Virus record (IMG/VR): IMGVR_UViG_3300005355_000022
Coordinates: 1 to 25,883 of that record
Origin: a virus
Length of the DNA: 25,883 nucleotides
Reading direction: 5' to 3' (one strand)
Both the position numbers and the translations under genes were made by a program. Positions 807 through 25,883 of this stretch are shown piece by piece. Each line of letters begins with the position of its first letter. The stretch's first letter is position 1. The notes under the pieces are model-generated. The model saw only the letters and a program-made list of their open reading frames with translations. It was not told the DNA's origin and did no database searches.

Positions 807-840
807 CTGAGCGACGCTGAGATCGCCAAGAGCAAGCGTT
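807..840 (+). repeat. Dispersed post-stop element, copy F (inverted orientation)
   Basis: The plus strand carries CTGAGCGACGCTGAGATCGC followed by CAAGAGCAAGCGTTTA. This matches the core of elements at 3511, 6168, 11348, 11420, 12839 and 17056, but in the opposite orientation to most of them relative to the genes. It lies directly after the TAA of the 79-residue gene, in a 169-base gap (671-839) that has no gene. The rest of the gap holds a GCCCGT/ACGGGC hairpin just upstream of the tail tube ribosome site. Confidence 0.5.
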
Positions 841-3481: not shown

Positions 3482-3510
3482 CAGGCTTACCTCCCTAACG
3501 CGGCGCTCAA

Positions 3511-3530
3511 TAGACCTCAGGGTCGTTCAC
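3511..3530 (-). repeat. Dispersed post-stop element, copy A
   Basis: On the plus strand this reads TAGACCTCAGGGTCGTTCAC. The first 19 bases are identical to the copy at 6168. On the coding strand it begins seven bases after the TAG of the 147-residue gene (TAGCGTCTCC then GTGAACG). GACC and GGTC arms around TCAG could form a small hairpin. Confidence 0.7.
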
Positions 3531-3981: not shown

Positions 3982-4007
3982 TGCCTTGCTCCCTTATTGG
4001 CGCGGCT

Positions 4008-4053
4008 GTGCGGCTGGGAAGGCCAGTGCGAGCCAGCATGCTCCCAGCCGCAC
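4008..4053 (-). promoter_or_regulatory. 12-bp perfect hairpin in the 239-base gap after the capsid gene
   Basis: GTGCGGCTGGGA and TCCCAGCCGCAC are perfect complements with a 22-base loop. The hairpin lies about 27 bases upstream of the ATG at 3981, so it is in the leader of the 147-residue gene. It has no T-run, so it is not an ordinary terminator. It could reduce read-through after the abundant capsid message, or protect a processed end. The rest of the gap (4054-4220) shows no gene and only a weak TATAGT-like word. Confidence 0.6.
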
Positions 4054-4220
4054 GCCACGCTACGGACTATGCATAGGTTGTGCCATGGGTGTAACTGGTT
4101 GGAGCGGTGCGCGGTGATTGCTGTGGTAAGCGCCTAGGGTACCCTGGCTTCGCCGATATCGGGGACTACCACAGCGACGCACCGACCAACCTGGCACCAC
4201 TATACCACAGGGCGCAACGC

Positions 4221-6133: not shown

Positions 6134-6167
6134 AGGTATACCCCTTTGCTACTAAGACGTACGAGCG

Positions 6168-6187
6168 TAGACCTCAGGGTCGTTCAT
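6168..6187 (-). repeat. Dispersed post-stop element, copy B
   Basis: The plus strand reads TAGACCTCAGGGTCGTTCAT, sharing 19 consecutive bases with copy A at 3511. It lies 12 bases after the TAG of the protease/scaffold gene and before the decoration ribosome site. It could encode an 11-residue peptide (MNDPEVYARTS), but no ribosome site precedes that start. Confidence 0.7.
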
Positions 6188-10978: not shown

Positions 10979-11017
10979 GCAAAACTCCCATAATGTACAA
11001 TGGCTTTACACGCGGTT

Positions 11018-11038
11018 GGTAAAAGCCCGCGTTTTGCC
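11018..11038 (+). promoter_or_regulatory. Inverted repeat, candidate operator and promoter of the XRE gene
   Basis: GGTAAAA, a 7-base centre and TTTTGCC form an almost perfect dyad in the 96-base divergent gap between the portal and the XRE gene. A weak plus-strand promoter (TTGGTA, about 16 bases, CATACC) overlaps it. A symmetric site covering a promoter of a helix-turn-helix gene is what autoregulation would look like. Binding has not been shown. Confidence 0.45.
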
Positions 11039-11074
11039 ATACCTGGTGTAAAGCAACGTTACAAGGAGGTACGT

Positions 11075-11335
11075 ATGACAGGCCCAGAACTGCACGCCGC
11101 ACGCAAGGAACTACGGCTTATCCAGGAAGACCTTGGCAAACTGTGCGGCAAGAGTAGGCAAGCCGTGGCCTATTGGGAAACGGGTCGCTTGCCCGTGCCA
11201 GGGTGGATGCCTACGTTCCTGGATGGCTTGCGCGCCCAGCGTGGCCAGTTCCGGCCAGCCACCATTGCTATCAACGGCGTGGTGTATGTGCGCCAGCCAG
11301 CCGCCACGCTAGGCACCTATAACGGCGACTACTAG
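11075..11335 (+). CDS. XRE-type helix-turn-helix regulator, the only plus-strand gene
   Basis: From ATG 11075 with AAGGAGG five bases upstream, the 86-residue product begins MTGPELHAARKELRLIQEDLGKLCGKSRQAVAYWETGRLPVPGWM. That is a helix-turn-helix of the XRE/Cro type (LxxxQxxLGKLxGxSRQAVxxWExG), with recognition helix SRQAVAYWE. The remainder (FRPATIAINGVVYVRQPAATLG) is a short extension. It lies between portal and terminase, opposite to every other gene. A longer in-frame start at 11000 lacks a ribosome site and is less likely. It probably regulates phage transcription; its target may be the dyad immediately upstream. Confidence 0.8.
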   Translation: MTGPELHAARKELRLIQEDLGKLCGKSRQAVAYWETGRLPVPGWMPTFLDGLRAQRGQFRPATIAINGVVYVRQPAATLGTYNGDY

Positions 11336-11347
11336 CCTACATGCCCA

Positions 11348-11448
11348 GGAGCGACACTGAGGTCTCCTCCAAGGCGCGTTACCCGCCAAACGACAACACT
11401 TGGTCGCCGCCACGCTAAACGCCCCGTCCTGGCGATCTCAGCGCTCCG
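11348..11448. repeat. Two facing copies (E and G) of the dispersed element between convergent genes
   Basis: Copy E (11348-11410, plus) begins GAGCGACACTGAGGTCTCC and could encode a peptide with SDTEVSSKARY and WSPPR. Copy G (11420-11448, minus) reads GGAGCGCTGAGATCGCCAG and continues GCGTTTA, like copy F. They face each other in the 132-base gap between the stops of the XRE gene and the terminase, forming a long imperfect inverted repeat. Confidence 0.55.
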
Positions 11449-12790: not shown

Positions 12791-12838
12791 GCCAGGCTCC
12801 ATTGCTACGACGATGTGGGGAGTAGGACGCCTTCTGGG

Positions 12839-12857
12839 AGACCTCAGGGTCGCTCAC
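12839..12857 (-). repeat. Dispersed post-stop element, copy C
   Basis: The plus strand reads AGACCTCAGGGTCGCTCAC, matching copies A and B at 18 of 19 positions. On the coding strand GTGAGCGACCCTGAGG continues CTCCCAGAAGGCG. An out-of-frame stretch with SDPEVSQKASY follows and resembles copies E and H. It lies in the gap between terS and terL. Confidence 0.7.
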
Positions 12858-13884: not shown

Positions 13885-14166
13885 TTAGCGTGCGCCAGCC
13901 CAGTAGCGCGCCTGACCAGGCATAGGCTTTATGCTGGTGCCATTACCGCAACTATACTTGCCACGGATGGGGAGATAGAAACTGGCGGTATACTTGCCCT
14001 TATTCCAGCAATCGCGGCGGATGGAGACGTCGGTGTCGCAATCGCGACCGCCTTTGTAGTGGCTGGCGGTAACGCTGGTGGTGTAGTTATGGCGTGGGCG
14101 CTGGGCACCAATGCGCGTGCGGCTGGTGGCTGTGGACGGTGTGAACGGGCTGGTGGTGCGTGCCAT
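13885..14166 (-). CDS. Small unknown protein, cassette gene with MART start
   Basis: The 93-residue product starts MARTTSPFTPSTATSRTRIG at ATG 14166 with AAGGGAG upstream. The C-terminal half is tyrosine-, lysine- and cysteine-containing (SHYKGGRDCDTDVSIRRDCWNKGKYTASFYLPIRGKYSCGNG), with three cysteines that could bind metal or form a compact beta fold. No family is recognised. The MART N terminus is shared with the genes at 14239 and 16363, as is the leader hairpin, though no -10 element is visible here. It is followed by a terminator at 13821. Confidence 0.6.
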   Translation of the reverse strand: MARTTSPFTPSTATSRTRIGAQRPRHNYTTSVTASHYKGGRDCDTDVSIRRDCWNKGKYTASFYLPIRGKYSCGNGTSIKPMPGQARYWAGAR

Positions 14167-14195: not shown

Positions 14196-14219
14196 GCGGC
14201 TGGCCAGGTACCAGGCCGC
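14196..14219 (-). promoter_or_regulatory. Leader hairpin cassette without a visible promoter
   Basis: On the coding strand GCGGCCTGG, a short loop and CCAGCCGC form a stem with one bulge just before the ribosome site of the 93-residue gene. It resembles the leader hairpins at 14611, 15171, 16294, 16969, 20785 and 22828, but the -10 and -35 are missing, so this gene is likely read from the 14638 promoter. Confidence 0.5.
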
Positions 14220-14238: not shown

Positions 14239-14580
14239 TTACCAGGTTGCGGCCATGTAGGCGTCGCGGGCTTTGGTGTAGGCGCTGGTGGCTGTGGCGT
14301 AGTCGTCCTGGCACATGGCGATGAGTTCGGCGTCGCCACTTGTCACGGCTTCGTTCAGGTCACGCATGGCCTGGCGCTTTGCCTGTGCGGCCTTATGCAT
14401 GGCTGTGGCCAGCGGCTTTGCGGCGTCGTTCTGGGCTTGCATGGCGCGTAGCGTGGCGTCCAGCATGTGCCCTGTGCGCTGTGGGTAGGCCAGGCTGGCA
14501 CCCAGCACGTTGAGCGCGTTTGCCATTGTTGGGCCGATTGCCTTTGCCAGTTGTGCGTTGCTGGTGCCTGTGCGTGCCAT
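14239..14580 (-). CDS. Small helical protein, cassette gene
   Basis: The 113-residue product starts MARTGTSNAQLAKAIGPTMA at ATG 14580, with AAGGGAG upstream. It is almost wholly helical and alanine-rich (LDATLRAMQAQNDAAKPLATAMHKAAQAKRQAMRDLNEAVTSGDAELIAMCQDDYATATSAYTKARDAY), suggesting a helical bundle or coiled coil. No family is recognised. It has its own promoter and leader hairpin. Confidence 0.65.
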   Translation of the reverse strand: MARTGTSNAQLAKAIGPTMANALNVLGASLAYPQRTGHMLDATLRAMQAQNDAAKPLATAMHKAAQAKRQAMRDLNEAVTSGDAELIAMCQDDYATATSAYTKARDAYMAATW

Positions 14581-14610
14581 GCTGTTGCTCCCTTGCCTGG
14601 TACTTGTCCT

Positions 14611-14665
14611 GGCCAGCCCAACTGCTGGCCTACGGCCATCTTACCACCAGGCCATGAAAATGCAA
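14611..14665 (-). promoter_or_regulatory. Promoter-leader cassette P1
   Basis: Minus-strand TTGCAT (14660-14665), a 16-base spacer and TAAGAT (14638-14643) are followed by GGCCGTAGGCC and the hairpin GGCCAGC-loop-GCTGGCC (14611-14630). The ribosome site and ATG at 14580 follow. The same module recurs at five other genes. Confidence 0.75.
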
Positions 14666-14691
14666 TACCCTGGCCAGCCCAGTTTTCCGGA

Positions 14692-14726
14692 CAAAATAAT
14701 GCCGCCTGGCATGGCCACCAGGCGGC
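14692..14726 (-). terminator. Terminator after the HNH gene
   Basis: On the minus strand GCCGCCTGG and CCAGGCGGC form a 9-base perfect stem, followed by ATTATTTTG. It lies directly after the HNH stop and before promoter P1. Confidence 0.8.
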
Positions 14727-14752
14727 TGGGCTGGGCAATGTGCCCTGGTGTC

Positions 14753-15142
14753 CTACCGTGCGCTTTCCAGGTCAATGGTGTCGCGGTCAATCGTGCCAGC
14801 GATGATCGCCTTTGCCAGCGTCACGTTTACGTAGGCATGCCGCTGTGCCTGTATTCGCTCCACTGCGCCGCCTGTGGCGTAGTCGGCCCAGTCCTTGTTC
14901 CCACGGGCGCTGTTGCAACTGCGGCATGCTGTTACCAGGTTGTCACTGTTGTTGTTGCCGCCATGGCTTCGGGCTTGCAAGTGGTCAAGGCTGACTTCTA
15001 CCGGATCCGCGTTGCGCATGTCCCTACCACAGTATTGGCAAATAAAGCCGTCGCGGATGTAAATCGCCAGGCGGCGCTCCCGTGTTATCCATTTGCCGCC
15101 GTTCATTGGCTTGTACCCTTGCGCCGTTGCTCGCGTGCCCAT
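14753..15142 (-). CDS. HNH endonuclease
   Basis: The 129-residue product starts at ATG 15142 with GGGAGGG six bases upstream. A longer frame start exists but lacks a ribosome site. RRLAIYIRDGFICQYCGRDM is followed by VEVSLDHLQARSHGGNNNSDNLVTACRSCNSARGNK. This is the classical HNH layout with two CxxC metal pairs (CQYC and CRSC), the catalytic DH in SLDH and the NNNSDNL segment. It could be a homing endonuclease or a packaging-associated nuclease. It sits as its own cassette rather than next to the terminase, which slightly favours a mobile, homing role. Confidence 0.85.
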   Translation of the reverse strand: MGTRATAQGYKPMNGGKWITRERRLAIYIRDGFICQYCGRDMRNADPVEVSLDHLQARSHGGNNNSDNLVTACRSCNSARGNKDWADYATGGAVERIQAQRHAYVNVTLAKAIIAGTIDRDTIDLESAR

Positions 15143-15170
15143 CGTGCCCTCCCTGGTAACTGTTGTGCCC

Positions 15171-15224
15171 GCCAGCCCAACTGCTGGCCTACGGCCAGTA
15201 TACCAGCCCTTTTCAGGAATGCAA
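15171..15224 (-). promoter_or_regulatory. Promoter-leader cassette P2 of the HNH gene
   Basis: Minus-strand TTGCAT (15219-15224), 16 bases, TATACT (15197-15202), then GGCCGTAGGCC-like sequence and hairpin GCCAGC-loop-GCTGGC (15171-15188). The GGGAGGG ribosome site follows. Confidence 0.78.
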
Positions 15225-15236
15225 GCCCTTTCAGGT

Positions 15237-15270
15237 AGCAAAATGCCGCCAGTTTTCAGCCTGGCGGCAT
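15237..15270 (-). terminator. Terminator after the 105-residue gene
   Basis: ATGCCGCCAG and CTGGCGGCAT form a 10-base perfect stem with an 8-base loop, followed on the minus strand by TTTGCT. It is placed between the stop at 15307 and promoter P2. Confidence 0.8.
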
Positions 15271-15306
15271 GCGCTATGCTAATCCGGCCGGATGGCTACT
15301 GTACGG

Positions 15307-15624
15307 TCAGGCGCTGGTGGCCGCCGTGCATTCCGCTGGGCTGGGCGCTGCCACGACGTCCGTGCGCCCGTGCATGCGTGGCCGTTGGCGCATGTAGTCC
15401 GCTCCAATCCGCGCTGGTATGCGCATGTTCAGCGCCCGTGCCACGGCCATCACATCGTGGCCGTTCAGTTCGTAGTCGCTGGCCTGGGCGTAGTGCATTA
15501 CCTTTGCGCCAGCCGCTTGCTCGTAGCGTAGTTCGCTAACGAAATTCCATACCTTGTCGCCGCCGTGCGGGTTCGCCGCCACGATAACGCCGAAAACTTC
15601 CAGGGCGATTGGTGAGAGTTGCAT
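15307..15624 (-). CDS. Small unknown protein
   Basis: The 105-residue product starts MQLSPIALEVFGVIVAANPH at ATG 15624 with AAGGAG seven bases upstream. It has a mixed alpha/beta look (KVWNFVSELRYEQAAGAKVMHYAQASDYELNGHDVMAVARALN) followed by a short basic and a threonine/alanine-rich end. No known family is recognised. Unlike most neighbours it has no promoter hairpin cassette, and it is probably co-transcribed with the 191-residue gene. An element resembling the dispersed repeat (ACGATCTCAC) lies in the 64-base gap before it. Confidence 0.6.
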   Translation of the reverse strand: MQLSPIALEVFGVIVAANPHGGDKVWNFVSELRYEQAAGAKVMHYAQASDYELNGHDVMAVARALNMRIPARIGADYMRQRPRMHGRTDVVAAPSPAECTAATSA

Positions 15625-15688
15625 GGCCTTGCTCCTTGCTGTGTAAGTGCCTGTAGAACGCTGTGAGATCGTTGCTCCGTGCCCGCGC

Positions 15689-16264
15689 CTAGCAAAACGT
15701 ATTGCGCGCCAGGTATGCCGCGTGTACCGCCATTTCCTCCGCCGTTAGCACGACTTTGACATCCGCCGTGGGCATTCCGTACCGCACGCCGTTGTCCCAG
15801 CACAACACCGTAACGCGCCAGGCGTTCGGTGCGTGCAAGGGCATATGGCACTCCTCCACCACGCCCAGCAACGGAAAGCCCGTGTCCGGTATGCCGTAGC
15901 GATGGCTGTGCCGGAACGACACCAGCGTGCCCACATCTGGCCGCCTGTACACGCCGTCCGCCTGGCGCATAAGGCCAGCCCGTACGGCGTCGTCGAACTC
16001 GTGGAACTCCACTTCCTGGCGGCGGAACTGCGCCAAGGCCGCGCTGGCTATTGCCCTGGCCATGTATGGCCTGGTGTAGCGCCCGCTTGCCAGCAAGCGC
16101 CGTGCCATTTCCGCCACGATGTCGTCGTCCGTGGCGCTGGCGTAGTCAAACGTGTGGCTGTCCTGGAGCTGCTCAATGATGTCGGCCGTGCGGTAGTCGT
16201 TTTCCGCCTGGGACATGCCTTCGGGCAATGCGGGCTGGGTTGGGTTGCTGTTGTCGCTGGCCAT
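15689..16264 (-). CDS. Unknown phage protein, 191 residues
   Basis: The product starts MASDNSNPTQPALPEGMSQA at ATG 16264 with AAGGAG eight bases upstream. The first 90 residues are helical (ADIIEQLQDSHTFDYASATDDDIVAEMARRLLASGRYTRPYMARAIASAALAQF). The second half has a VGTLVSFRHSHRYGIPDTGFPLLGVVEECHM stretch and WRVTVLCWDNGVRYGMP strands, suggesting a small beta barrel. No family is recognised. It has its own promoter-leader module P3. Confidence 0.6.
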   Translation of the reverse strand: MASDNSNPTQPALPEGMSQAENDYRTADIIEQLQDSHTFDYASATDDDIVAEMARRLLASGRYTRPYMARAIASAALAQFRRQEVEFHEFDDAVRAGLMRQADGVYRRPDVGTLVSFRHSHRYGIPDTGFPLLGVVEECHMPLHAPNAWRVTVLCWDNGVRYGMPTADVKVVLTAEEMAVHAAYLARNTFC

Positions 16265-16293
16265 TTGTCGTGCTCCTTGCCTGGTATTTGCTG

Positions 16294-16354
16294 GGCGGCC
16301 AGCCCATGTGCCAGCCGCCTGGTGCCATCATAGCGCCTTTGCCGGAAACTGCAA
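16294..16354 (-). promoter_or_regulatory. Promoter-leader cassette P3
   Basis: Minus-strand TTGCAG (16349-16354), 16 bases and TATGAT (16327-16332) precede hairpin GGCGGCTGG...GGCCGCC (16294-16319). The ribosome site AAGGAG and ATG 16264 follow. Confidence 0.75.
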
Positions 16355-16362
16355 CAGGCCGC

Positions 16363-16692
16363 CTATGCCTGGCTAAACCAATCCACGTCGGCAAAGCCCA
16401 CGGTGTCGTCCAGCCAGTGCAAAATGCCCATGGCGCTGGCGTAGGCCGTGCTGTGCAGCGTGTAGTTCGCGGGCAGCCAATGCACCATGGCCGTGTACAG
16501 GCTGGCCAGGCCGTTTGTGCGCCGCTCCACCGTGATGTGGAACACGCCGCGCTGGTGCCCCACCATGGCCGTGATGGGCAACCCTTCCTGGCTGGCCGTG
16601 AGCGCGGCGTCCAAGTTTTGCGCGTACAGGTCGCGCATGGCCGCCTGGATGGGCGCTGGGCTGGTGGTGGTGGTGCCTTGCGTGCGTGCCAT
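16363..16692 (-). CDS. Small unknown protein, cassette gene with MART start
   Basis: The 109-residue product starts MARTQGTTTTSPAPIQAAMR at ATG 16692 with AAGGAG upstream. After the N-terminal low-complexity part it reads LYAQNLDAALTASQEGLPITAMVGHQRGVFHITVERRTNGLASLYTAMVHWLPANYTLHSTAYASAMGILHWLDDTVGFADV, a mixed fold ending in a helix. No family is recognised. The MART start and the leader hairpin (16725) are shared with other cassette genes, but a promoter is not visible. Confidence 0.6.
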   Translation of the reverse strand: MARTQGTTTTSPAPIQAAMRDLYAQNLDAALTASQEGLPITAMVGHQRGVFHITVERRTNGLASLYTAMVHWLPANYTLHSTAYASAMGILHWLDDTVGFADVDWFSQA

Positions 16693-16724
16693 TTGTGCGC
16701 TCCTTGCCTGGTACGTATGTGCGT

Positions 16725-16750
16725 GGCGGCTGGCACCGTTACCAGCCGCC
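16725..16750 (-). promoter_or_regulatory. Leader hairpin cassette lacking the promoter
   Basis: GGCGGCTGG and CCAGCCGCC form a 9-base perfect stem with an 8-base loop, just after the upstream stop at 16764. Where other cassettes have TATGAT, this one has CACCAG. It is likely the leader only, read from P5 upstream. Confidence 0.55.
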
Positions 16751-16763
16751 TGGTGCCCTGGTG

Positions 16764-16940
16764 TTAGGCGTCGCGGTATGTCCAGCGCGCCACGATCATG
16801 TTGCCCTGTGCCACGTTGTAGGCTTCCAAGCCCGCGATCCCCACCGTGTAGCCAATGGCCTGGCTTTGCGTGTAGAAGTGGAGCGGCGCGCTCCATGTGC
16901 CCTTGGCGCGGTAGTAAAGCGTGAACGCTGGCGTTGCCAT
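16764..16940 (-). CDS. Small aromatic-rich protein, cassette gene
   Basis: I start at ATG 16940 with AAGGAG seven bases upstream. The 58-residue product reads MATPAFTLYYRAKGTWSAPL, then YTQSQAIGYTVGIAGLEAYN and NMIVARWTYRDA. A longer in-frame start at 17120 exists but passes through the promoter and the dispersed element, so I reject it as the usual start. The product is rich in tyrosine and tryptophan and looks like a small beta fold. No family is recognised. Confidence 0.6.
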   Translation of the reverse strand: MATPAFTLYYRAKGTWSAPLHFYTQSQAIGYTVGIAGLEAYNVAQGNMIVARWTYRDA

Positions 16941-16968
16941 GGTGTTGCTCCTTGCCCTGGTAACTGGC

Positions 16969-17020
16969 GGCCAGCCATCCTGGCCTACGGCCATCATACC
17001 ACCAGGACGGATAAAAGCAA
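16969..17020 (-). promoter_or_regulatory. Promoter-leader cassette P5
   Basis: Minus-strand TTGCTT (17015-17020), 16 bases, TATGAT (16993-16998), then GGCCGTAGGCC and hairpin GGCCAG-loop-CTGGCC (16969-16985). It serves the 58-residue gene. Confidence 0.78.
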
Positions 17021-17055
17021 CACGTATGAGCGCCAATCTAAGGCGATGGAAGTGG

Positions 17056-17120
17056 CCTGGCGACCAAATGCTGTCGCTGGCATGGTAACGCGCCTTCCAG
17101 GAGACTTCAGCGCGGCTCAT
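17056..17120 (-). repeat. Dispersed post-stop element, copy H (long form)
   Basis: On the minus strand it begins ATGAGCCGCGCTGAAGTCTC seven bases after the TAG of the PIG-L gene, with TAGCATCTCC in front, matching TAGCGTCTCC before copy A. About 65 bases align with copy E on the plus strand at 11348, including AAGGCGCGTTACC and TTGGTCGCC. Translated, SRAEVSWKARY and WSPG parallel SDTEVSSKARY and WSPP of E. Confidence 0.6.
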
Positions 17121-17127
17121 GGAGATG

Positions 17128-17898
17128 CTAGGCTGGTGGCGCTATGTGCCAGTAGCGCTCCCTTTGCACCGTGTCCGCGAGGAGGAGTTCGGTATCCGGC
17201 TGTCCGGCCAGGTTGCGTGCGCCCGTAAAGTTGCCCAGTTGCGCCCGCAAGCCCTTTATCTGGCTGGCGTAGCATTGGATAGCAAGCAACTTGGCGATAT
17301 AGGGCTGGCCAGTGCCCGCGCTGGTGCCCATAATGGCCGCCTGGTGCCCGCCATTGCCCAACTGGCGCAACCTGGCCGCCAGGCTGTTGCGCATTGCTCT
17401 GTACGGGCTTTCCTCGTACCACAGCATTTGTTCCGGCCGGATGGCCGTGCCCAGCAACAGCAAGCAAGCGTTATGAACGCGCTTGTGGTCGCTGTGAACA
17501 AGACCAAGTGGCGCAACGACCTGGCTATGTGGCTCCGCGCCCAACAGCGGCTCTAGCACGACTGAGATCGTTTCAGCGATCTCCTTGGCCTGGTATGGGT
17601 GCGTGCGCTGGCGCGTGCCCTTTGCGCCGTTTAGGTAGGAGCCTTGTAGCCAGTCCATATGCACGGCCTGTGCGCCCAGTTGGGCCAGCGCCTTGCGGTC
17701 TTCCTTGCGCCGCCAGGCCATGACATTTTCCCCTGGCGCAAAGCCACAGGCGGTATCCCAGGCGTTCAGTTTGGCATAGCCTTGCGGCGGCGTGCCCGCG
17801 AACACGGTAACGCACACAGCGCCCGCATTTGCCGCCATGTACTCGCCGCAACCAAATACGGCGTCATCTAGGTGAGGACTAATCACTATAACCGTCAT
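17128..17898 (-). CDS. PIG-L family deacetylase
   Basis: I start at ATG 17898 because GGAGG lies five bases upstream. The 256-residue product begins MTVIVISPHLDDAVFGCG, the family signature (PHxDD) that supplies zinc and catalytic residues (H9, D11, D12). A second zinc motif, LGLVHSDHKRVHNA, lies at about residues 131-144 (H135, D137, H138). The basic segment WRRKEDRKALAQLGAQ also matches the usual helix. Family members remove acetyl groups from N-acetylglucosamine conjugates. In this phage it could act on sugars attached to DNA or to a host surface glycan. It is about 6 kb from the TET/glycosyltransferase genes, so the link is only inferred. Confidence 0.85.
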   Translation of the reverse strand: MTVIVISPHLDDAVFGCGEYMAANAGAVCVTVFAGTPPQGYAKLNAWDTACGFAPGENVMAWRRKEDRKALAQLGAQAVHMDWLQGSYLNGAKGTRQRTHPYQAKEIAETISVVLEPLLGAEPHSQVVAPLGLVHSDHKRVHNACLLLLGTAIRPEQMLWYEESPYRAMRNSLAARLRQLGNGGHQAAIMGTSAGTGQPYIAKLLAIQCYASQIKGLRAQLGNFTGARNLAGQPDTELLLADTVQRERYWHIAPPA

Positions 17899-17913
17899 GC
17901 CAGCCTCCACTTA

Positions 17914-17956
17914 CGAAAATGGCCACGCCCAGCGCAAGCGGCGCGCTGGGCGTGGC
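17914..17956 (-). terminator. Strong terminator after the multi-winged-helix gene
   Basis: GCCACGCCCAGCGC and GCGCTGGGCGTGGC form a 14-base perfect stem with a 7-base loop, followed on the minus strand by ATTTTCG. It is the most stable hairpin in the window and lies just after the stop at 17981, 16 bases before the PIG-L start. Confidence 0.85.
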
Positions 17957-17980
17957 TGGCATACACCAGGGTAGTGCAGC

Positions 17981-18868
17981 CTATTTCTTGCCCGCTCCTG
18001 GCTTCTTTGCCACGGCGGCTGTCTTGGCTGGCGCGGCGTTGGCGGGCGGCTCCACGTAGCCATAGTCAATGGTGTTGCCTTCGCTGTCCACCAAGTCCCA
18101 GTAGCGCAAGTTGCGCTGGCCGTCCTTGCCCAGTTCCGCGTACGGCGTGCCGCCCAGCCAGGCCGCATACCGCGCCTTTTCCGCTGGGTTGAAAAACTGT
18201 GCGCGGTTCATAGGAGAGACCTTGTTCTTGCGGCTGGTGGCGTCGCACACGATAATAGCGTGGTGTTGCGTGGCGCGGCGCTCGCCCTTGGCAACCTGGA
18301 TGGCCGCCTGGAGCAAGGCGTTGTAGCCTTCCTCGCCAAGGCTATACTGGCGGCAGTAGGCGCGGATAACGCGCTCCGCATCCTGTGTGGGCTGTGCGGT
18401 GCCCGTGAACGGCTCCGGCGCGGCCTTTGGCGCGGCGGCTGGCTTTGCGGCCTTTGGCGCGGTGTTGACAGGCTTTGGCGCGGGCTTGCCATTGGCGGCG
18501 TTCTTGCCCGTGGGCTTGAGCGTGGTAATGGCGGCGGCCTTTGGCTGGCGCGGCGTGCGCGGCAGCGGCGCTTGCTTGCCTGTCTTGCTGTCGTTGATGT
18601 CCTCCACGGTCAGCAAGCCCGTGAACTGGAACCGCACGGCGTTCTCGCCTTCCTGGCCAGGCGCGGCGCGCATGACTTCCGCCCGCACGTAGCGCCGTTC
18701 CGCCGCGCTAAGTGCCACGATTTCCTTTGCCATCCACTCCGGCACATCGGCTTCCGCCGTGTCCAGGCTGGCAATGGCCGCCGCCAGGTTCTGGTACCCT
18801 TCCGCCTGTTCGGCCGTGAGAACGAGATCGGTGTCCGGTGTTGCTGTTGCGGTCTGTGAATTCGCCAT
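17981..18868 (-). CDS. Candidate nested in-frame protein from an internal start
   Basis: Inside the 923-residue frame, ATG 18868 (MANSQTATATPDTDLVLTAE) is preceded at seven bases by AGGAGGG, much better than chance. It would yield the last 295 residues, which carry a helical segment, a lysine/alanine/proline-rich linker (PKPVNTAPKAAKPAAAPK), a folded helical part (RVIRAYCRQYSLGEEGYNALLQAA) and a basic tail. Whether it is used is unknown. Confidence 0.45.
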   Translation of the reverse strand: MANSQTATATPDTDLVLTAEQAEGYQNLAAAIASLDTAEADVPEWMAKEIVALSAAERRYVRAEVMRAAPGQEGENAVRFQFTGLLTVEDINDSKTGKQAPLPRTPRQPKAAAITTLKPTGKNAANGKPAPKPVNTAPKAAKPAAAPKAAPEPFTGTAQPTQDAERVIRAYCRQYSLGEEGYNALLQAAIQVAKGERRATQHHAIIVCDATSRKNKVSPMNRAQFFNPAEKARYAAWLGGTPYAELGKDGQRNLRYWDLVDSEGNTIDYGYVEPPANAAPAKTAAVAKKPGAGKK

Positions 18869-20752
18869 TTCCTGGCCCTCCTGCAGTTGTGTGGGCTGGG
18901 CACTGTTGCCCGCCACCAGTGTATAGCCATCGGCCACTTGCCGAATATGGCCGTCCTTTACCAGGCGCTTGATAGCGCCTTGCCAGCGATAGGCGCTGGC
19001 GTTCTGTGGGATTTGCGCTTGCAAGCCCGCCAGCCGCCACGGCTCGTGGATGTCCAGGGTTGCCATGGTGTCCCAAATGGCCTGTTCCAGCCACATCCCA
19101 CGGCTGGCGTACGTATGCGGGTCGGCCACGGGCGCGCTGGGCGCTGGTGCCTGTTCCGGCCGGATCTCGCCACTTTGCAAGGCCGCCTGTGTGGCCACGG
19201 GCAACGTGGCGGCCTTGGCGGCGTCGTCCGCCGCAAAGCGCCGCGCCAGCACGATTTCCGCCGCCTTGTCGTAGAGCGCCGCGCCGTCCATGCCCGCCAC
19301 CAGTACGCCGCTTTCCCGCAACGCCTTTATGCTGGCACCGTAGGTGTCCGGATGGCCGCTGGCGCTTACCTGTTCCACGACATGCACGGCGGCATTCAGC
19401 CGCGTTTGCTCGTCGTCGGCGGCCTGTTCCGCCGTGGCGGGCAATGCGTACGCTGGCGCGGTGCCCGTGCCAAACGCTGGCGCAATCTCCTGGAGCAAGC
19501 CTTGCGCCACCAGGCTGGTAAGGGCACGGTTGAGAAGTTGCGCATTCATCTTCGTGAGCCGAAGGATGTCCTCGCGGGTAAAGGTTGCGCCAGGCGAAAA
19601 GAACTCCAGAACGTGCGCCTGGCGCGCCGCCGCGCCTTTGGGCAACGTGGCGGCTGGCGCGTTTGCAGCCCGTTCCGCCAGTTCCACCGCGTTCGCCGCC
19701 GCGACCGTGGCTTGCATAATGGGATCCGCCTTTGCCTGTTGCTGGGCTTCCGCTTGCTCCTGTACGGGCACGGGTTGCGCGCCAGGCGCAACGTACGTGC
19801 CATTGCACACGGCATCCAGCAAGGCGGCGCGGGCATCCACACCAACAGCGCCCATGTACGGCGTGCGGTCGGTGCAATCGTACATGGCCGCCACCAGGTA
19901 TGTCCGCCCGCGCCCGCCAGGGTGAACGCGCAGCACGCCAGTCGCCACCAGGCCGTCCAGGAGCGCCTGAATGCGCTGGGTGTTTACCTTGGCACCGTTC
20001 CAGCCAAAGTGCTTTTGCATGCGCTCCAGCACTTCCCCACGGTACAACTGGCCGCCACGGATAACCTGCACGATGCCTTGCTCGTTGGGCGTGAGCGGCT
20101 TGCTGGCGGGCGCTGGCGTGGCGGGCGCTGTGGGCTGGGCGATCACCTGGTACTCGTCGGCAGCCACAACTGGCACGGCTGGCGCTGGGCTGGTGGCGGC
20201 GCGCATAATGGCCTCGCACGCGGCCACACAGCGCTGGATGACGGCCATGGTGCCACTGCGCCCACGGGTTTCGCGGTAGGTAAGCATGGTGCCAGCGGCG
20301 TCGTAAACTCCCCAGCGGAAGCCAGCGCCGTTGTCAATCTGCCGTATGGTGTATGCGCCGTAGGTGTAAACGCCGCCAGCGCCTTTGGTAAGTTGCGGGC
20401 GCTGTGTGGTGGCGGGCGCTGGCACGGGCGCGGCCTGTGCGGGTTGCACGGTGCCAGCGCCAATGGGATCCAGGGTTGCCAGCAAGTTGTCAATCTCGTC
20501 GTCCGTGGCGGGCGCTGGCTGTGCGGCGGCGGCCTTGCTGGCCTGGTACTCCCGCTCCTGCTCCTCCATCATGCCGTCCGTGATGTCTTGCACCGTAACG
20601 GACTTGCGGTGCATGCCCTTGGCAAAGCGATGCGCGTTGTCAATGGCCATGGCCGCGAAGCCGCCCGTGGGCGAGATACCGCGCCGCTCGCACTCAGCGA
20701 AGAAAAACTTCTTGGCGGCTGGGGAAAGTTGGAGGCCGTTGCTGGTGGACAT
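17981..20752 (-). CDS. Large multi-domain protein with at least three winged-helix units
   Basis: I start at ATG 20752, with AAGGAG seven bases upstream; a longer frame start passes into the leader hairpin. The 923-residue product has an N-terminal segment (6-66) that resembles a histone-like helix-loop-helix (IDNAHRFAKGMHRKSVTVQDITDGM). Residues about 126-184 form a small domain (GGVYTYGAYTIRQIDNGAGFRWGVYDAAGTMLTYR). Winged-helix units lie at about 220-290 (IVQVIRGGQLYRGEVLERM...LLDGLVATGVLRVHPGG), 373-440 and 548-615. Between them are alanine/proline/glutamine-rich linkers. From 629 a coiled and basic tail follows, ending KKPGAGKK. A DNA-binding or nucleoid-type role is likely, but no known family is recognised. 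It has its own promoter P6 and a strong terminator. Confidence 0.7.
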   Translation of the reverse strand: MSTSNGLQLSPAAKKFFFAECERRGISPTGGFAAMAIDNAHRFAKGMHRKSVTVQDITDGMMEEQEREYQASKAAAAQPAPATDDEIDNLLATLDPIGAGTVQPAQAAPVPAPATTQRPQLTKGAGGVYTYGAYTIRQIDNGAGFRWGVYDAAGTMLTYRETRGRSGTMAVIQRCVAACEAIMRAATSPAPAVPVVAADEYQVIAQPTAPATPAPASKPLTPNEQGIVQVIRGGQLYRGEVLERMQKHFGWNGAKVNTQRIQALLDGLVATGVLRVHPGGRGRTYLVAAMYDCTDRTPYMGAVGVDARAALLDAVCNGTYVAPGAQPVPVQEQAEAQQQAKADPIMQATVAAANAVELAERAANAPAATLPKGAAARQAHVLEFFSPGATFTREDILRLTKMNAQLLNRALTSLVAQGLLQEIAPAFGTGTAPAYALPATAEQAADDEQTRLNAAVHVVEQVSASGHPDTYGASIKALRESGVLVAGMDGAALYDKAAEIVLARRFAADDAAKAATLPVATQAALQSGEIRPEQAPAPSAPVADPHTYASRGMWLEQAIWDTMATLDIHEPWRLAGLQAQIPQNASAYRWQGAIKRLVKDGHIRQVADGYTLVAGNSAQPTQLQEGQEMANSQTATATPDTDLVLTAEQAEGYQNLAAAIASLDTAEADVPEWMAKEIVALSAAERRYVRAEVMRAAPGQEGENAVRFQFTGLLTVEDINDSKTGKQAPLPRTPRQPKAAAITTLKPTGKNAANGKPAPKPVNTAPKAAKPAAAPKAAPEPFTGTAQPTQDAERVIRAYCRQYSLGEEGYNALLQAAIQVAKGERRATQHHAIIVCDATSRKNKVSPMNRAQFFNPAEKARYAAWLGGTPYAELGKDGQRNLRYWDLVDSEGNTIDYGYVEPPANAAPAKTAAVAKKPGAGKK

Positions 20753-20784
20753 TGTGGTAACTCCTTGCCTGGTACCTTGCTGTG

Positions 20785-20842
20785 GCGGCCAGCCCGTGTG
20801 CTGGCCGCAACCCAATCATACCACGACCGGAACAGATTGCAA
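20785..20842 (-). promoter_or_regulatory. Promoter-leader cassette P6
   Basis: Minus-strand TTGCAA (20837-20842), 16 bases and TATGAT (20815-20820) precede hairpin GCGGCCAGC-loop-GCTGGCCGC (20785-20808), a 9-base perfect stem. The ribosome site and ATG 20752 follow. The -35 lies five bases from the previous stop. Confidence 0.8.
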
Positions 20843-20847
20843 GCCCT

Positions 20848-22800
20848 TTACGACGCCAGTTTTGCGGCATTCTTGCAGTCGGCTGGCAACGACCACGCAT
20901 AGTTGTAAACACGCCCACGGCTGGCGGTAGGCGCTCCCAGGTCGTACGTGGCCGTGGCACCGCAATAGTGGCAATGCTGGGTAACGCGGTAGTGGCCGCC
21001 AGCCGCCGTGCGGTCGTGTTGCCAGCGCGCCTTGCGCTGGTATTCGTTTGCGCCGCTGTCCAGGCTGTGGCCACAGCCCGCGCATTCCGTAGGTTCGTCG
21101 TGCTGTTCGGGCATTTGCACCAGGCCAGGTTGCGCCTGTGCGGGCGCTGGCGCAGCCTGTGCGGCGGCTGGCGTGGGCACGGGCACGGATCCGGCCGGAG
21201 CGGGCGTGGCCTGGCACCGCGTTAGCACGGTTTGATTGCGGCCTTTGTAGGTATCGTGCGCCTTTACGGTGCCACGCACATTGTAGGCGCTGCCCACGGC
21301 ATAGGCGTCGTCCCCAACCCAGCCTGTCCACCAGGTAAAGGCGCGGCCATCGGCGTCCGTAAAGGAAAGCAACGTGCGTTCCCCAAACTGGCCGTCAAAC
21401 ACACGGATGCCCGTGCAGGTAAGCGTGAAATCGGCGCGCTTGCCAATGGTGCCAGCCCATTCGTTGCACGGCTGGGCGGCGTTGCGGCGCTCCTCCGCAG
21501 CCTTTTCCCGCAACTTATGCACGTAGCCATACGTGTACGCCACGGTGCCCATGTTGCGCGTGGTCACGGTGTCCATGCGCACCAGGGTAAGCAAGTTGTG
21601 CTCAAAGTCGCTGAAATCGTGCTCTCCGCTGCGGGCTTGCAAGGCGACAATGGCCTCCTGGCGCAACGCCTTGGCTTCCTCTTGCTCTTCTGAGGTCGGC
21701 TCGTAGGGAATGTCGTCGTAGCGCTTGTCGTAGCGCGCCAGGCCGTGGTGGATGTGCAAGTAGTGCAAGGCGTAGTCCCGTGTGGAGCCGCCACGCACCA
21801 TATCGCGCTGGGCTTGCGCGCCACTAATGAACGGGCGCTGGCGGGCACGTAGGCTGCCCACCACGTAGGCCAGGAACTCGTCGGTGTCGTACACTTGCTC
21901 GCCACGGCCAAAGCCCACAGCCACGCCCGCCAACTTGAAAAGGCGTTCCGCAAGCAAGGCAATGGTTTCGGGGTCGTTGCCGCCCAGGAAATCCTTTAGG
22001 CACTGGCGGCCTACTTGCACCGTGCGCCCGTCCTCATGCACCAGCACAAAGGTTTCCTTGCGGGCACGGATTTTGTTGCAATGCTCGCAGTGGCCAGGGT
22101 CGGCCGTGCGGTACTTGGCTGGGATCTCCTGGCCAGGCACGTTGCGGATAACGGTGCCATCGCCAGCCCGTTCCAGCACGGCGGCCAGTGTCCAGCCGTT
22201 TAGGCGCGGCTCCTGGCCGTACACGGTAACAGCAGTGTACAGGAACTTGCCCGTTGTCTTCTTCTCAAAGGGATGGCCGTCCACGTCGTAGGCCGTGTAC
22301 CAGTAGGTAACGTCCCGCACGACTTCCTCGCCTTGCACCACGCGCACGGGCGGACAGCCCAGTTTGGCGGCGTGGCGGTTGAGCGCCGCAATGGCCTTGG
22401 CGAATTCTGGCAAGTTGCGGCTGGGGATGTCGTACTCGCCCACCAGCATTTCCACGGGCTGGCTGGGCTGGGCTGGCGCGCTGGGCGCTGGCACGGCCAC
22501 GGGCGCTGGTGCCTGGCTGGTGGCGGGCGCTGGGCTGGCCGGAATGGGCACTTGCGCCGCCGCGCCACCAGCCATAATGCTGTCCACGGCGGTGGAAACC
22601 ACGATCTTGGCGTCGCGGAGCAAGGAATAGTCGTTCCACCATTCGCCGTTCACGATAAGCCGCCAAACCCAGCCGCCAGGCTTGCGCTCGTCAACTTTGT
22701 TGGGGCAAAACACACGCACGCGGCCATCCAGCGCCGTGTACTCGCCGTCCCCAACCTTTTCCCACTTTACGCTTGCGGCCATTTTGCTGAGCTCTGTCAC
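20848..22800 (-). CDS. Large protein with zinc motifs and an OB-like domain
   Basis: The 650-residue product starts at GTG 22800 with GGGAG seven bases upstream. Residues 10-75 form a small beta domain (VKWEKVGDGEYTALDGRVRVFCPN...GGWVWRLIVNGEW). A proline/alanine linker follows. Residues about 225-275 have a Zn-type motif KYRTADPGHCEHCNKIRARKETFVLV and VGRQCLKDFLGG (C238, C241, C267). Residues about 447-530 look like an OB fold (WAGTIGKRADFTLTCTGIRVFDGQFGERTLLSFTDADGRAFTWWTG...VRGTVKAHDTYKGRNQTVLTRC). The C terminus has CAGC at 573 and CHYC at 610, a zinc-ribbon-like pair. Such combinations usually occur in proteins that act on DNA, so a role in replication or recombination is possible, but the family is not recognised. 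Confidence 0.68.
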   Translation of the reverse strand: MTELSKMAASVKWEKVGDGEYTALDGRVRVFCPNKVDERKPGGWVWRLIVNGEWWNDYSLLRDAKIVVSTAVDSIMAGGAAAQVPIPASPAPATSQAPAPVAVPAPSAPAQPSQPVEMLVGEYDIPSRNLPEFAKAIAALNRHAAKLGCPPVRVVQGEEVVRDVTYWYTAYDVDGHPFEKKTTGKFLYTAVTVYGQEPRLNGWTLAAVLERAGDGTVIRNVPGQEIPAKYRTADPGHCEHCNKIRARKETFVLVHEDGRTVQVGRQCLKDFLGGNDPETIALLAERLFKLAGVAVGFGRGEQVYDTDEFLAYVVGSLRARQRPFISGAQAQRDMVRGGSTRDYALHYLHIHHGLARYDKRYDDIPYEPTSEEQEEAKALRQEAIVALQARSGEHDFSDFEHNLLTLVRMDTVTTRNMGTVAYTYGYVHKLREKAAEERRNAAQPCNEWAGTIGKRADFTLTCTGIRVFDGQFGERTLLSFTDADGRAFTWWTGWVGDDAYAVGSAYNVRGTVKAHDTYKGRNQTVLTRCQATPAPAGSVPVPTPAAAQAAPAPAQAQPGLVQMPEQHDEPTECAGCGHSLDSGANEYQRKARWQHDRTAAGGHYRVTQHCHYCGATATYDLGAPTASRGRVYNYAWSLPADCKNAAKLAS

Positions 22801-22827
22801 TGTGTGGCTCCCTTACCTGGTAACTGT

Positions 22828-22887
22828 GCCGCCAGCCCGTTTGCTGGTGGCCTACGGCCATCGTACCACGCTTTCACGGAAAAGCAA
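22828..22887 (-). promoter_or_regulatory. Promoter-leader cassette P7
   Basis: Minus-strand TTGCTT (22882-22887), 16 bases and TACGAT (22860-22865), then GGCCGTAGGCC and hairpin GCCACCAGC-loop-GCTGGCGGC (22828-22851) with one mismatch. It drives the 650-residue gene. Confidence 0.75.
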
Positions 22888-23377
22888 TAGGCCGCCTGGG
22901 ATTGCCCAGCCGCCAGGTCAGCCACCAGGCGGCGGCGCGTGATAGTGAAAATGGTTGCGCCAGCCATCATGGACGGGCGCTATTGTTTGCGTGATTGCAC
23001 TAATCGCCGTGGGCGCGCATACTTTGCGGGCTGGCCTGGCGGCTGGCTTTTACTCCCACCAGCCAGGGTTGCGCGCCAGGCCAGCCCTTACCAGCCCAGT
23101 AGGCCAGCCAGCCCGCGCTCCTCATGTGAGCGGGCGCGTCCTTTAGGCCAGGCCGTCCGGCCGGATGGCACCAGCCGCCAGGCCAGGCGGCCAGCCCAGC
23201 CCGCCACGGCACGAAGCATAGCCAGCCCGAAAGTTCGCTGGGGCTTCATATCTCCTTCTCCCAGGGATCCCGCAAAACCGCACAGCCCGCGCCCGCCTGG
23301 CCGCCCGCGTACGCATGAACTATCGCGGTTTTGCGATTGTTTCAAAAATTCTGTAGACCACTTTTGCCTGGAGCCAG
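22888..23377. other. Noncoding stretch rich in CCAGCC/GGCTGG words
   Basis: Between promoter P7 and the stop of the MazG-like gene there is no credible gene. GGCTGG and CCAGCC words recur many times, especially at 23030-23110 and 23160-23240. A GCCGCCTGG...CCAGGCGGC pairing at about 22890-22940 could act as a terminator. The left part is very GC-rich and the right end (23320-23365) is AT-richer. Longer plus- and minus-strand open frames here lack ribosome sites. It may hold an origin, a packaging site or an unidentified small RNA; nothing proves any of these. Confidence 0.55.
23271..23335. repeat. 11-bp perfect inverted repeat, 43 bases apart
   Basis: CGCAAAACCGC (23271-23281) and GCGGTTTTGCG (23325-23335) are perfect complements. 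They lie in the noncoding stretch next to an AT-richer segment. They could be a protein-binding dyad, an origin element or a long-loop hairpin. Confidence 0.7.
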
Positions 23378-24049: not shown

Positions 24050-24832
24050 CTACTTTGGTGCCAGGGCGCGCCAGTCAATCTTGACATCCACGCGCCCATC
24101 CTTCTTCACGATGCGCTTGACAAAGCCTGGCCACAGCGCGATAAGGCGGCTGACCATCTCATCCTCAATGCCTGGCACGGCGTAGGCGTGTTCCTGGCCG
24201 CCTTTGGATTCCCCGTACTTGCCCGTGCCAAAGGCGTAGCGGGTAATGCGCGCCGTGTGCCAGCCAGCCGCCAACACTTGCATGCTGAAGTCGGTGTCTT
24301 GCTTGAGCACCATTTCCTCGCGGTAGCGGATGCGCCGTAGGCGCTGGGCGTGGAAGCACATTGCCACGCGGCATGCGGTGTTGAGGACAAAGGCTTCCGT
24401 TGCGCTCCAGGCGTATTGCTGGAACTCCAGCCCAACTTGCGCCAGGCTGGAGTGTCCCAGGAAGTAGCCTTCCGCGCCACGCACGGCCTGTACGGCGGCG
24501 CACTTAGCGGTCTTGCCGTTGGCTGCTATGTAGAAGGAGTCTATGTCGTCGTCCATTACCCAGTACCATGGCTGGGCAAAACCGCTGTATTGCGCCGTGC
24601 TGGTGGCCGTGTCGCGTATCCAGTTACGGGCGTACACGCTCCCACGGTTGTCCTCTGGGAGCACCATGTAGTCGTACTCCGGCCTGGCCGCCTCGTAGGC
24701 GTCGTAGTCCTGCGGCTCCACCACCACCGTAAAGGGCACGCCACTTTCAGCCAGGAGATCCGCTGTCTTGGGCTTTTCCGCCCGCGCCTTGCTGGGTATG
24801 TACACGGGCACCGACGGTAACTGCGATTCCAT
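24050..24832 (-). CDS. TET-associated glycosyltransferase
   Basis: The 260-residue product starts at ATG 24832 with GGGAG seven bases upstream. It begins with VPVYIPSKARAEKPKTADLLAESGVPFTVVVEPQDYDAY, then LPEDNRGSVYARNWIRD. The metal/nucleotide-sugar motif WVMDDDIDSF (D94-D96) follows, and later YREEMVLKQDTDFSMQVLAAGW and KGGQEHAY. This order (IPSxxRA, VVEPxxYxxY, PExxRGxxxARNW, DDD, DTDF, GGxxxxY) is that of the phage TET-associated glycosyltransferase family, thought to add sugar to 5-hydroxymethylcytosine in DNA. It lies two genes from a TET-type dioxygenase, and the pair is a known arrangement. The sugar donor is not known. The start overlaps the 92-residue gene by 86 bases. Confidence 0.88.
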   Translation of the reverse strand: MESQLPSVPVYIPSKARAEKPKTADLLAESGVPFTVVVEPQDYDAYEAARPEYDYMVLPEDNRGSVYARNWIRDTATSTAQYSGFAQPWYWVMDDDIDSFYIAANGKTAKCAAVQAVRGAEGYFLGHSSLAQVGLEFQQYAWSATEAFVLNTACRVAMCFHAQRLRRIRYREEMVLKQDTDFSMQVLAAGWHTARITRYAFGTGKYGESKGGQEHAYAVPGIEDEMVSRLIALWPGFVKRIVKKDGRVDVKIDWRALAPK

Positions 24833-25025
24833 TGATGTGCTCCCTTATGGCCTGTTCTGCGTCTTGCGCCGTGGCGTATGGCCCATACCAGCGCCACGGC
24901 ATCCAGTACCCTTGCTTACTTGGCTCCTGGTACTTACGATCCTCCCGTATCTGGTACGTGCCGCGCTTGTTGTAGTTTTCATGCACACTGAAGCGTACCT
25001 CGTATGCCGTGGCTGGCGCGCCCAT
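24747..25025 (-). CDS. Small unknown protein between TET and glycosyltransferase genes
   Basis: The 92-residue product starts at ATG 25025, overlapping the TAA of the TET gene (TAATG), so it is coupled. Residues 1-65 are compact (YEVRFSVHENYNKRGTYQIREDRKY, then WMPWRWYGPYATAQDAEQAIREHING), a beta-rich start and a helix. The last 27 residues are glycine/glutamine-rich and coincide with the out-of-frame overlap with the glycosyltransferase start. No family is recognised. Its position suggests an accessory of the DNA-modification operon. Confidence 0.6.
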   Translation of the reverse strand: MGAPATAYEVRFSVHENYNKRGTYQIREDRKYQEPSKQGYWMPWRWYGPYATAQDAEQAIREHINGIAVTVGARVHTQQGAGGKAQDSGSPG

Positions 25026-25883
25026 TATTGCGCCTCGCCGCCGCCGCCCAGCGCGCCCATATTTGCGAGCGCCAGTTGGTCGTCGTAGAGGGCATCGGTG
25101 TTTTCCTCCGTGCCGTCGGTGGTAACGAGTTGAGGGCGGCTGTCACGATCGTAGAGCGGGTCGCCTAGTTTGCGGTGCTTTGCGCGGAATTCCTCTTCAT
25201 CCGCCGTGCCGCACTTGTGCATCTTGGCGCGGTAGTACAACACGACGCTGATGCGCTCGTAGTGTCCCTTCTTGCCAATGAGCGGCGTATTGCCGTGCCA
25301 CTCATGCACGTTGCACAGCAACACGTCGCTGGTGCGCATGTCCACGGCCACGCGGTACTTGGGGAACACCAGGTAACAGCCCGCGTACGTGTCGCCCGCT
25401 TCCAATACGCTTAGGACGCCAAAGCCTTCCTTGAGGTCGCCCGCGTCTTTGTGTACCGCCGTGCGGAAGTTCTTGTTGACCGTGCAAGTGGTGAAAGCCG
25501 TGCCTGGTATGATCCAGTCCGACTTGGTTTGCTCCACCATGGCCATCTGTGCCTGGTAGCGGTCGGGTAGTTCCGCACAGAAGACCTTGTCAATGGCACG
25601 GATGTAGTCCGCCACCTTCAGCATATCGCCAGGGTTGTCCTTGGTGAACGCGGTAAGGCGGCAAAACGGGAACCGTGCGTAGCGGTCAAAGGAGCCAATG
25701 ATGCCACTACTGCTGTCCGCCAGGCCGTCGGAGATGTGGCGGCGCGTGGTGTTGCTGACCGTGCCGTCCTTGAGTATGGGCTTGCCATTGTAGTAGCCAC
25801 GGTTCTGTGCTGAGTTCAGGCGGCCAGCCGTGTAGTCGGTGTTGGAGCGCGTGCCATCCAGTTTTATAGGGTTGATAAACGCC
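25025..25883 (-). CDS. TET/JBP-type 2OG-Fe(II) dioxygenase, 5' end cut by the window
   Basis: The frame is open to the right edge; 285 residues are present. The visible part begins FINPIKLDGTRSNTDYTAGR. It continues with SDGLADSSSGIIGSFDRYARFPFCRLTAFT, PDRYQAQMAMVEQT, WIIPGTAFTTCTVNKNFRTAVHKDAGDL, GFGVLSVLEAGDTYAGCYLVFPKYRVAVDMRTSDVLLCNVHEWHGNTPL and ERISVVLYYRAKMHKCG. HKD supplies the HxD iron ligands, HEWHGN the distal histidine and ERISVVLYYR the 2-oxoglutarate-binding arginine. This is the TET/JBP family pattern seen in phages, which oxidise 5-methylcytosine in DNA to 5-hydroxymethylcytosine. The glycosyltransferase downstream would then decorate it. The N terminus is missing. Confidence 0.9.
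   Translation of the reverse strand, partial: AFINPIKLDGTRSNTDYTAGRLNSAQNRGYYNGKPILKDGTVSNTTRRHISDGLADSSSGIIGSFDRYARFPFCRLTAFTKDNPGDMLKVADYIRAIDKVFCAELPDRYQAQMAMVEQTKSDWIIPGTAFTTCTVNKNFRTAVHKDAGDLKEGFGVLSVLEAGDTYAGCYLVFPKYRVAVDMRTSDVLLCNVHEWHGNTPLIGKKGHYERISVVLYYRAKMHKCGTADEEEFRAKHRKLGDPLYDRDSRPQLVTTDGTEENTDALYDDQLALANMGALGGGGEAQ

Follow-up and report, generated by a model that had tools for sequence, protein, structure and literature searches.

The IMG/VR record IMGVR_UViG_3300005355_000022 is a linear entry of 25,883 bases with a G+C content of 62%, and the whole of it (the window) was analyzed for a short leader that is repeated eight times on its minus strand, six times behind a promoter. 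The source is an uncultured tailed phage and, as it is linear, the record is probably a fragment. On the minus strand, the genes for a TET/JBP oxygenase and a TET-associated glycosyltransferase (25.6-24.0 kb) are followed by the leader region (22.8-13.9 kb) and then by the virion genes, with a block (13.4-4.2 kb) that encodes the small and large terminase subunits, the portal, the head protease, and the major capsid protein. The leader units are confined to the non-virion genes and none lies within the region from the large terminase subunit to the capsid gene. The repeated leader module is real and well placed, and the evidence that it forms an RNA structure is good.

A search of the minus strand for TTGCNN-N16-TAnnnT returned exactly six matches in the window (mean 0.61 and maximum 4 in 100 dinucleotide shuffles), and these are the six promoters named by the original prediction (table 1). 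Spacers of 13-15 and 17-20 nucleotides (nt) gave just 0-2 minus-strand matches each. All six promoters have -35 and -10 hexamers with a spacer in the sigma-70 range of 16-18 nt, five out of six have an extended -10 (TG one base before the hexamer), and one out of six reaches the 9-of-12 consensus score of the promoter tool. The sequence GGCCGTAGGCC follows four of the promoters exactly, as had been claimed.

With the transcription start site (TSS) predicted at 7 nt after the -10 hexamer, the hairpin begins at RNA nucleotide 1, 2, or 3 (0-2 nt from the predicted TSS) in all six promoter-bearing copies. The start codon follows the last hairpin base at a distance of 27, 32, 28, 29, 28, and 30 nt in these copies and of 32 and 29 nt at 16725 and 14196, where the promoter is lacking, and since these distances are nearly constant the hairpin is fixed in position relative to both the predicted TSS and the start codon. 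When the leaders were folded singly, each of the six hairpins that had been predicted was present in its own minimum free energy (MFE) fold; the hairpin comes first in the MFE and centroid structures and the Shine-Dalgarno sequence stays mostly unpaired, with the hairpins at 15197, 22860, and 16993 being the weaker ones in the MFE folds. As about 15 nt separate the hairpin from the Shine-Dalgarno sequence downstream, which is mostly unpaired, the suggestion that it is a translation timer finds no support. No T-run follows the hairpin in any leader and a terminator scan lists none of them, so that a reading of the leader hairpins as terminators was rejected. A CsrA-type site (the loops lack GGA) and a pseudoknot between the loop GG and TACCAGG (2-4 pairs only, judged by eye) were also dropped.

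Ribosome sites are present throughout, as predicted, but the proposed form TACCAGG(C/G)AAGGAG varies (TACCAGGTAAGGGAG at 22822 and TACCAGGGAGGG at 15158); TACCAGG is kept upstream of the Shine-Dalgarno sequence in seven out of eight copies. The copies at 16725 and 14196 had been described as hairpins from which everything else was lost. The promoter is indeed missing from both, but TACCAGGCAAGGAG remains at 16725 and a plain AAGGGAG ribosome site at 14196.

Single hairpins are only modestly better than shuffled sequences because the words GGCTGGC and GCCAGCC are abundant in the genome (36 copies of GGCTGGC on the minus strand). The six leaders with a promoter have folding z-scores of -2.2, -3.4, -0.3, -1.3, -0.6, and -1.2, which combine to about -3.7 (sum divided by the root of six, calculated by hand). 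The strength of the evidence lies in the repeated placement rather than in the individual hairpins. With one mismatch allowed, the window has 10 promoter-like matches on the minus strand. A hairpin lies in the TSS range of 6 of them, exactly the six promoters named above, compared with 7 out of 166 promoter-like matches in other loci of matched G+C content. For the full layout of promoter, perfect hairpin, ribosome site, and start codon, the window has five instances and all other loci combined have seven, against 0.07 in a shuffled window. Two further hairpins, one in front of the capsid gene (about 28 nt upstream of 5237) and one in front of 3981, were not counted as copies, since strong hairpins at 2 of about 28 other gene starts are near the chance level. 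The second of these (3980-4085, minus strand) is very stable (-52.6 kcal/mol for the fold of the stretch). It stops about 26 nt short of the start codon at 3981, has CCGTAG immediately upstream and no TTGC promoter, and is possibly a degenerate ninth leader.

The prediction that the stems vary in sequence while their pairing is kept was borne out in an alignment of six hairpins (five promoter-bearing copies and the copy at 16725; the copies at 16993 and 14196, with differing stem or loop lengths, were left out). With the register set by hand on the hairpin, which favors that register, standard pairs fill 88% of the pair cells, and this value drops to 10-52% when the partner is slid by one to three columns. 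Two-sided changes are found at four out of ten stem pairs, and the stem changes comprise C-G to U-G or U-A, A-U to G-U or G-C, and one G-C to C-G. As the register was hand-set and the copies are related, the kept pairing supports an RNA structure but does not prove it. All eight loops (AAACGG, ACACGG, ACAUGG, AGUUGG twice, GAUGG, ACGG, and UACCUGG) end in YGG, that at 14196 only if the closing U-G is counted as loop, compared with YG before 25% of the GGCTGG words elsewhere. A covariance model built from five copies recovered two of the three held-out copies with confidence (22852-22800, E = 6e-10; 16988-16940, E = 3e-6) and the copy at 14196 weakly (E = 0.077). Direct observation covers the repeated unit, its spacing, the match to a promoter, the predicted folding, and the kept pairing, and the proposal of a selected leader RNA structure is supported by the fixed distances to the predicted TSS and the start codon, the pairing kept with G-U pairs included, and the YGG loop ends.

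The reading that we favor, with a probability of roughly one half, is that the leader is a reused module in which a 5'-terminal mRNA-protecting and insulating hairpin is combined with a strong ribosome site. Each unit would join a host sigma-70-type promoter to a short leader with a strong Shine-Dalgarno sequence, and the leader would open with a 5' stem-loop (0-2 unpaired nt) followed by 27-32 nt that contain the ribosome site. Hairpins at the 5' end impede RppH and RNase E and stabilize bacterial mRNA (reviewed in PMC3997798). Here the hairpin would bar pyrophosphohydrolase and 5'-end-dependent ribonucleases (of the RppH/RNase E or RNase J type) from the 5' end and would stop upstream RNA from pairing with the ribosome site, while the rest of the leader, at about the footprint of one initiating ribosome, would leave almost no bare RNA and the open Shine-Dalgarno sequence would permit strong initiation. 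In the promoter-less copies the hairpin, which comes after a stop codon and ahead of the next ribosome site, would insulate that site and possibly protect a processed 5' end, and in this internal position it would give the second gene of an operon the same shield. A putative function of this kind is probable for the leader module, and its effect would most likely be that the message of each gene is long-lived and easy to translate. Protection together with insulation is the simplest account that uses all of the geometry, and its functional steps are inferred. The module probably spread by duplication and recombination before unrelated small genes. Three otherwise different small proteins (16692, 14580, and 14166, minus strand) share the start MART, so that the module copies resemble one another even in the first few codons, which hints that the module was duplicated and the genes behind it were swapped.

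Several points weigh against protection and insulation. The TSSs are predicted only, and two out of eight copies are internal, so that a purely 5'-end role does not cover them. All copies share the YGG loop end, for which a plain end-blocker has no need, and the folding z-scores are weak in several copies. Furthermore, the copies are paralogues within one genome and their covariation rests on few independent events.

The YGG loop end favors the main rival, in which an RNA-binding protein of the phage (or the host), or an antitermination or translation factor, binds the hairpin and coordinates the eight genes. Hairpins that proteins bind usually combine a variable stem with a conserved loop end, and the excess of YGG over the YG frequency at other GGCTGG words, the retention of TACCAGG, and intrinsic terminators just upstream of the promoters at 14665 (14726-14701) and 15224 (about 15270-15240) would all suit such a site; against this, no candidate RNA-binding protein was identified, there is no Rfam match, the loops otherwise differ in length and sequence, and YGG could persist by common descent, which leaves a protein site possible but rather unlikely. 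That the eight hairpins form an RNA regulon, in which one phage-encoded RNA-binding protein would switch the stability, translation, or termination of the whole early gene set, is more doubtful. The same degree of doubt attaches to the inverted repeats as DNA operators, with a phage repressor or activator bound around +1 (GGCCGTAGGCC and the arms), as has been proposed for the ESAS elements of cluster K phages. The phage encodes a helix-turn-helix regulator on the strand opposite to the leaders, and GGCCGTA, including the untranscribed positions -6 to -1, is identical in four copies even though the promoter spacers have diverged. However, two out of six promoters lack the palindrome, and the stem sequence varies while RNA pairing is kept, with G-U pairs that break DNA symmetry; as these pairs are kept and the inverted repeat persists without a promoter at 16725 and 14196, an operator is the less likely reading. 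Least likely of all, and improbable in itself, is that the copies are recent duplications (mobile regulatory cassettes that aid gene shuffling) whose hairpins reflect the abundance of GGCTGGC/GCCAGCC and have no RNA function, for although such words are abundant, the copies at 14638 and 15197 are 86% identical over 43 nt, and the MART starts carry the similarity into coding sequence, the spacer sequences of the promoters have drifted apart while the hexamers, the length of the spacer, the position of the hairpin, and its pairing have stayed the same, and the slid pairings collapse.

The leader is so far known from one genome only. The covariance model found nothing below E = 0.2 in about 815 kb of large terminase subunit and portal relatives and other loci, and no significant match among TET-gene relatives or across thirteen complete viral records. 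Ten bacterial genomes gave only weak matches, the best of them to a hairpin that stands in another context and lacks the layout. No leader match at E up to 1 was found among the 4227 covariance models of Rfam 15. Viral contigs reached through the 650-amino-acid (aa) protein, the glycosyltransferase, and the 923-aa protein included no relative with a homologous region, and phage and plasmid collections showed no DNA similarity. Scans of viral contigs for exact patterns produced isolated matches alone, 33 single ones for TANNNTGGCCGTAGGCCA and 15 for GGCTGGC-N-TACCAGGNAAGG, the latter set lacking the layout on inspection. Since the collections searched held no contig with a homologous early region, the negative results of the model do not refute conservation between phages.

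Table 1. Coordinates of the leader units, the genes they serve, and other features of the window (promoters run from the first base of the -35 hexamer, at the higher coordinate, to the last base of the -10 hexamer)
Feature	Coordinates	Strand	Details
Promoter 1	22860-22887	-	TTGCTT-N16-TACGAT; TGG before -10; then GGCCGTAGGCC
Hairpin 1	22828-22851	-	GCC-A-CCAGC / AAACGG / GCTGG-C-GGC, one A.C mismatch; predicted TSS 22853
Ribosome site, gene 1	22808-22822	-	TACCAGGTAAGGGAG; 7 nt before GTG 22800
Gene 1	20848-22800	-	650 aa; matches phrog_2319 (family without assigned function)
Promoter 2	20815-20842	-	TTGCAA-N16-TATGAT; TGG before -10
Hairpin 2	20785-20808	-	9 bp; begins at predicted +1 (20808); z -3.4
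Ribosome site, gene 2	20761-20774	-	TACCAGGCAAGGAG
Gene 2	17981-20752	-	923 aa; weak match to MarR-like winged-helix
Promoter 3	16993-17020	-	TTGCTT-N16-TATGAT; TGG before -10; then GGCCGTAGGCC
Hairpin 3	16969-16985	-	GGCCAG / GAUGG / CUGGCC; predicted TSS 16986
Ribosome site, gene 3	16948-16962	-	TACCAGGGCAAGGAG
Gene 3	16764-16940	-	58 aa; no family match
Promoter-less hairpin	16725-16750	-	GGCGGCUGGUA / ACGG / UGCCAGCCGCC; 13 nt past gene 3 stop; z -2.7
Ribosome site, gene 4 (promoter-less copy)	16700-16713	-	TACCAGGCAAGGAG
Gene 4	16363-16692	-	109 aa; no family match; N-terminus MART
Promoter 4	16327-16354	-	TTGCAG-N16-TATGAT; no TG before -10; then GGCACCA
Hairpin 4	16294-16319	-	10 bp, including two G-U pairs; predicted TSS 16320
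Ribosome site, gene 5	16273-16286	-	TACCAGGCAAGGAG
Gene 5	15689-16264	-	191 aa; no family match
Promoter 5	15197-15224	-	TTGCAT-N16-TATACT; TGG before -10; then GGCCGTAGGCC
Hairpin 5	15171-15188	-	GCCAGC / AGUUGG / GCUGGC; predicted TSS 15190
Ribosome site, gene 6	15147-15158	-	TACCAGGGAGGG
Gene 6	14753-15142	-	HNH endonuclease, 129 aa
Promoter 6	14638-14665	-	TTGCAT-N16-TAAGAT; TGG before -10; then GGCCGTAGGCC
Hairpin 6	14611-14630	-	GGCCAGC / AGUUGG / GCUGGCC; predicted TSS 14631
Ribosome site, gene 7	14588-14602	-	TACCAGGCAAGGGAG
Gene 7	14239-14580	-	113 aa; no family match; N-terminus MART
Promoter-less hairpin	14196-14219	-	GCGGC-c-UGG / UACCUGG / CCAGCCGC; directly past gene 7 stop; weakest copy; z +0.4
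Gene 8	13885-14166	-	93 aa; no family match; N-terminus MART; plain AAGGGAG ribosome site
Helix-turn-helix regulator	11000-11335	+	Opposite strand to the leader genes
GAGCGACNCTGAGGTCTCC copies	809-827 (+), 3510-3528 (-), 6167-6185 (-), 11349-11367 (+), 12837-12855 (-), 17100-17118 (-)		

Relatives of the terminase reach at best 66% identity among viral contigs and up to 43-44% among bacterial genome assemblies, and Chloroflexota and Actinomycetota are common among the best bacterial-assembly matches; a Chloroflexota host is only a guess. The TET/JBP oxygenase and the TET-associated glycosyltransferase (24050-25624, minus strand), together with a PIG-L type deacetylase (17128-17898, minus strand), suggest hypermodified cytosines in the phage DNA. 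A stretch of about 490 nt without an assigned gene (22888-23377) contains many GGCTGG/CCAGCC words and potential hairpins and is a candidate replication or packaging region. A relative that is 66% identical (L005) has a long, repetitive, G+C-rich, apparently noncoding stretch (830-1790) directly upstream of the terminase. A second repeated motif, GAGCGACNCTGAGGTCTCC, has six intergenic copies (up to 3 mismatches allowed; 0.02 expected), mostly between virion genes and in both orientations. It is part of a longer element of 69 nt that is found at 11340-11408 and, inverted, at 17059-17127, and the motif may mark sites of late control or belong to small mobile elements.

The leader unit resembles both the PeSL cassettes and the ESAS/SAS elements of other phages but is a member of neither group. 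In the PeSL cassettes of T4-like phages, a stem-loop described as a terminator is reportedly combined with an early promoter; they are likewise repeated, compact units of promoter and stem-loop between small, fast-shuffled phage genes. The hairpins of the present phage differ in lying downstream of the promoter, in the leader, and in lacking the T-run of a terminator.

The closest published layout is that of the cluster K mycobacteriophages, in which the ESAS (extended start-associated sequence; a SigA-like promoter with an inverted repeat) is combined with a 13-bp SAS (start-associated sequence) at start codons, seven ESAS being reported in Adephagia, and for which the authors saw little evidence of a hairpin in the mRNA (PMC3203893, PMC11373665). 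Both systems have a repeated intergenic unit that is restricted to the non-structural region (six sigma-70-like units in the present phage), a SigA/sigma-70-like promoter, an inverted repeat, and a conserved motif that reaches beyond the Shine-Dalgarno sequence just before start codons. However, in the Adephagia sequence, which was read directly, the ESAS arms GTTGACATGCATACAG...CTGTATGCATGTCAAC contain TTGACA and the -10 region, that is, the promoter itself, which makes the repeat there a DNA-level feature with the look of an operator. The ESAS arms of 15-17 bp thus overlap the -35 and -10 hexamers, whereas in the present phage the arms lie downstream of the -10 hexamer in six out of six units, at the predicted 5' end of the RNA, and their pairing is kept. 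The SAS GGGATAGGAGCCC, located 3-9 bp before start codons in cluster K, has no match in the window with up to 2 mismatches.

At the level of design, the leader also resembles the 5'-terminal stem-loops that stabilize the mRNAs of ompA, papA, and bla with an appended hairpin (cited in PMC3997798), as a stable stem-loop that leaves hardly any nucleotide unpaired at the 5' end (0-2 nt from the predicted TSS in six out of six leaders) is followed by a single-stranded ribosome site. Those are leaders of single E. coli genes, whereas the present design is repeated across a phage genome with two internal copies, and stabilization is putative. Repeated promoter-leader units such as ESAS/SAS and PeSLs have long been on record, and little has been offered to explain their function. 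The present phage adds a lineage that has no sequence relation to them, in which the inverted repeat apparently works as RNA, where the message is predicted to begin. It would offer a simple, testable case of phages that standardize mRNA protection and ribosome access by one reusable part, and the leader would also serve as a ready-made part for expression work.

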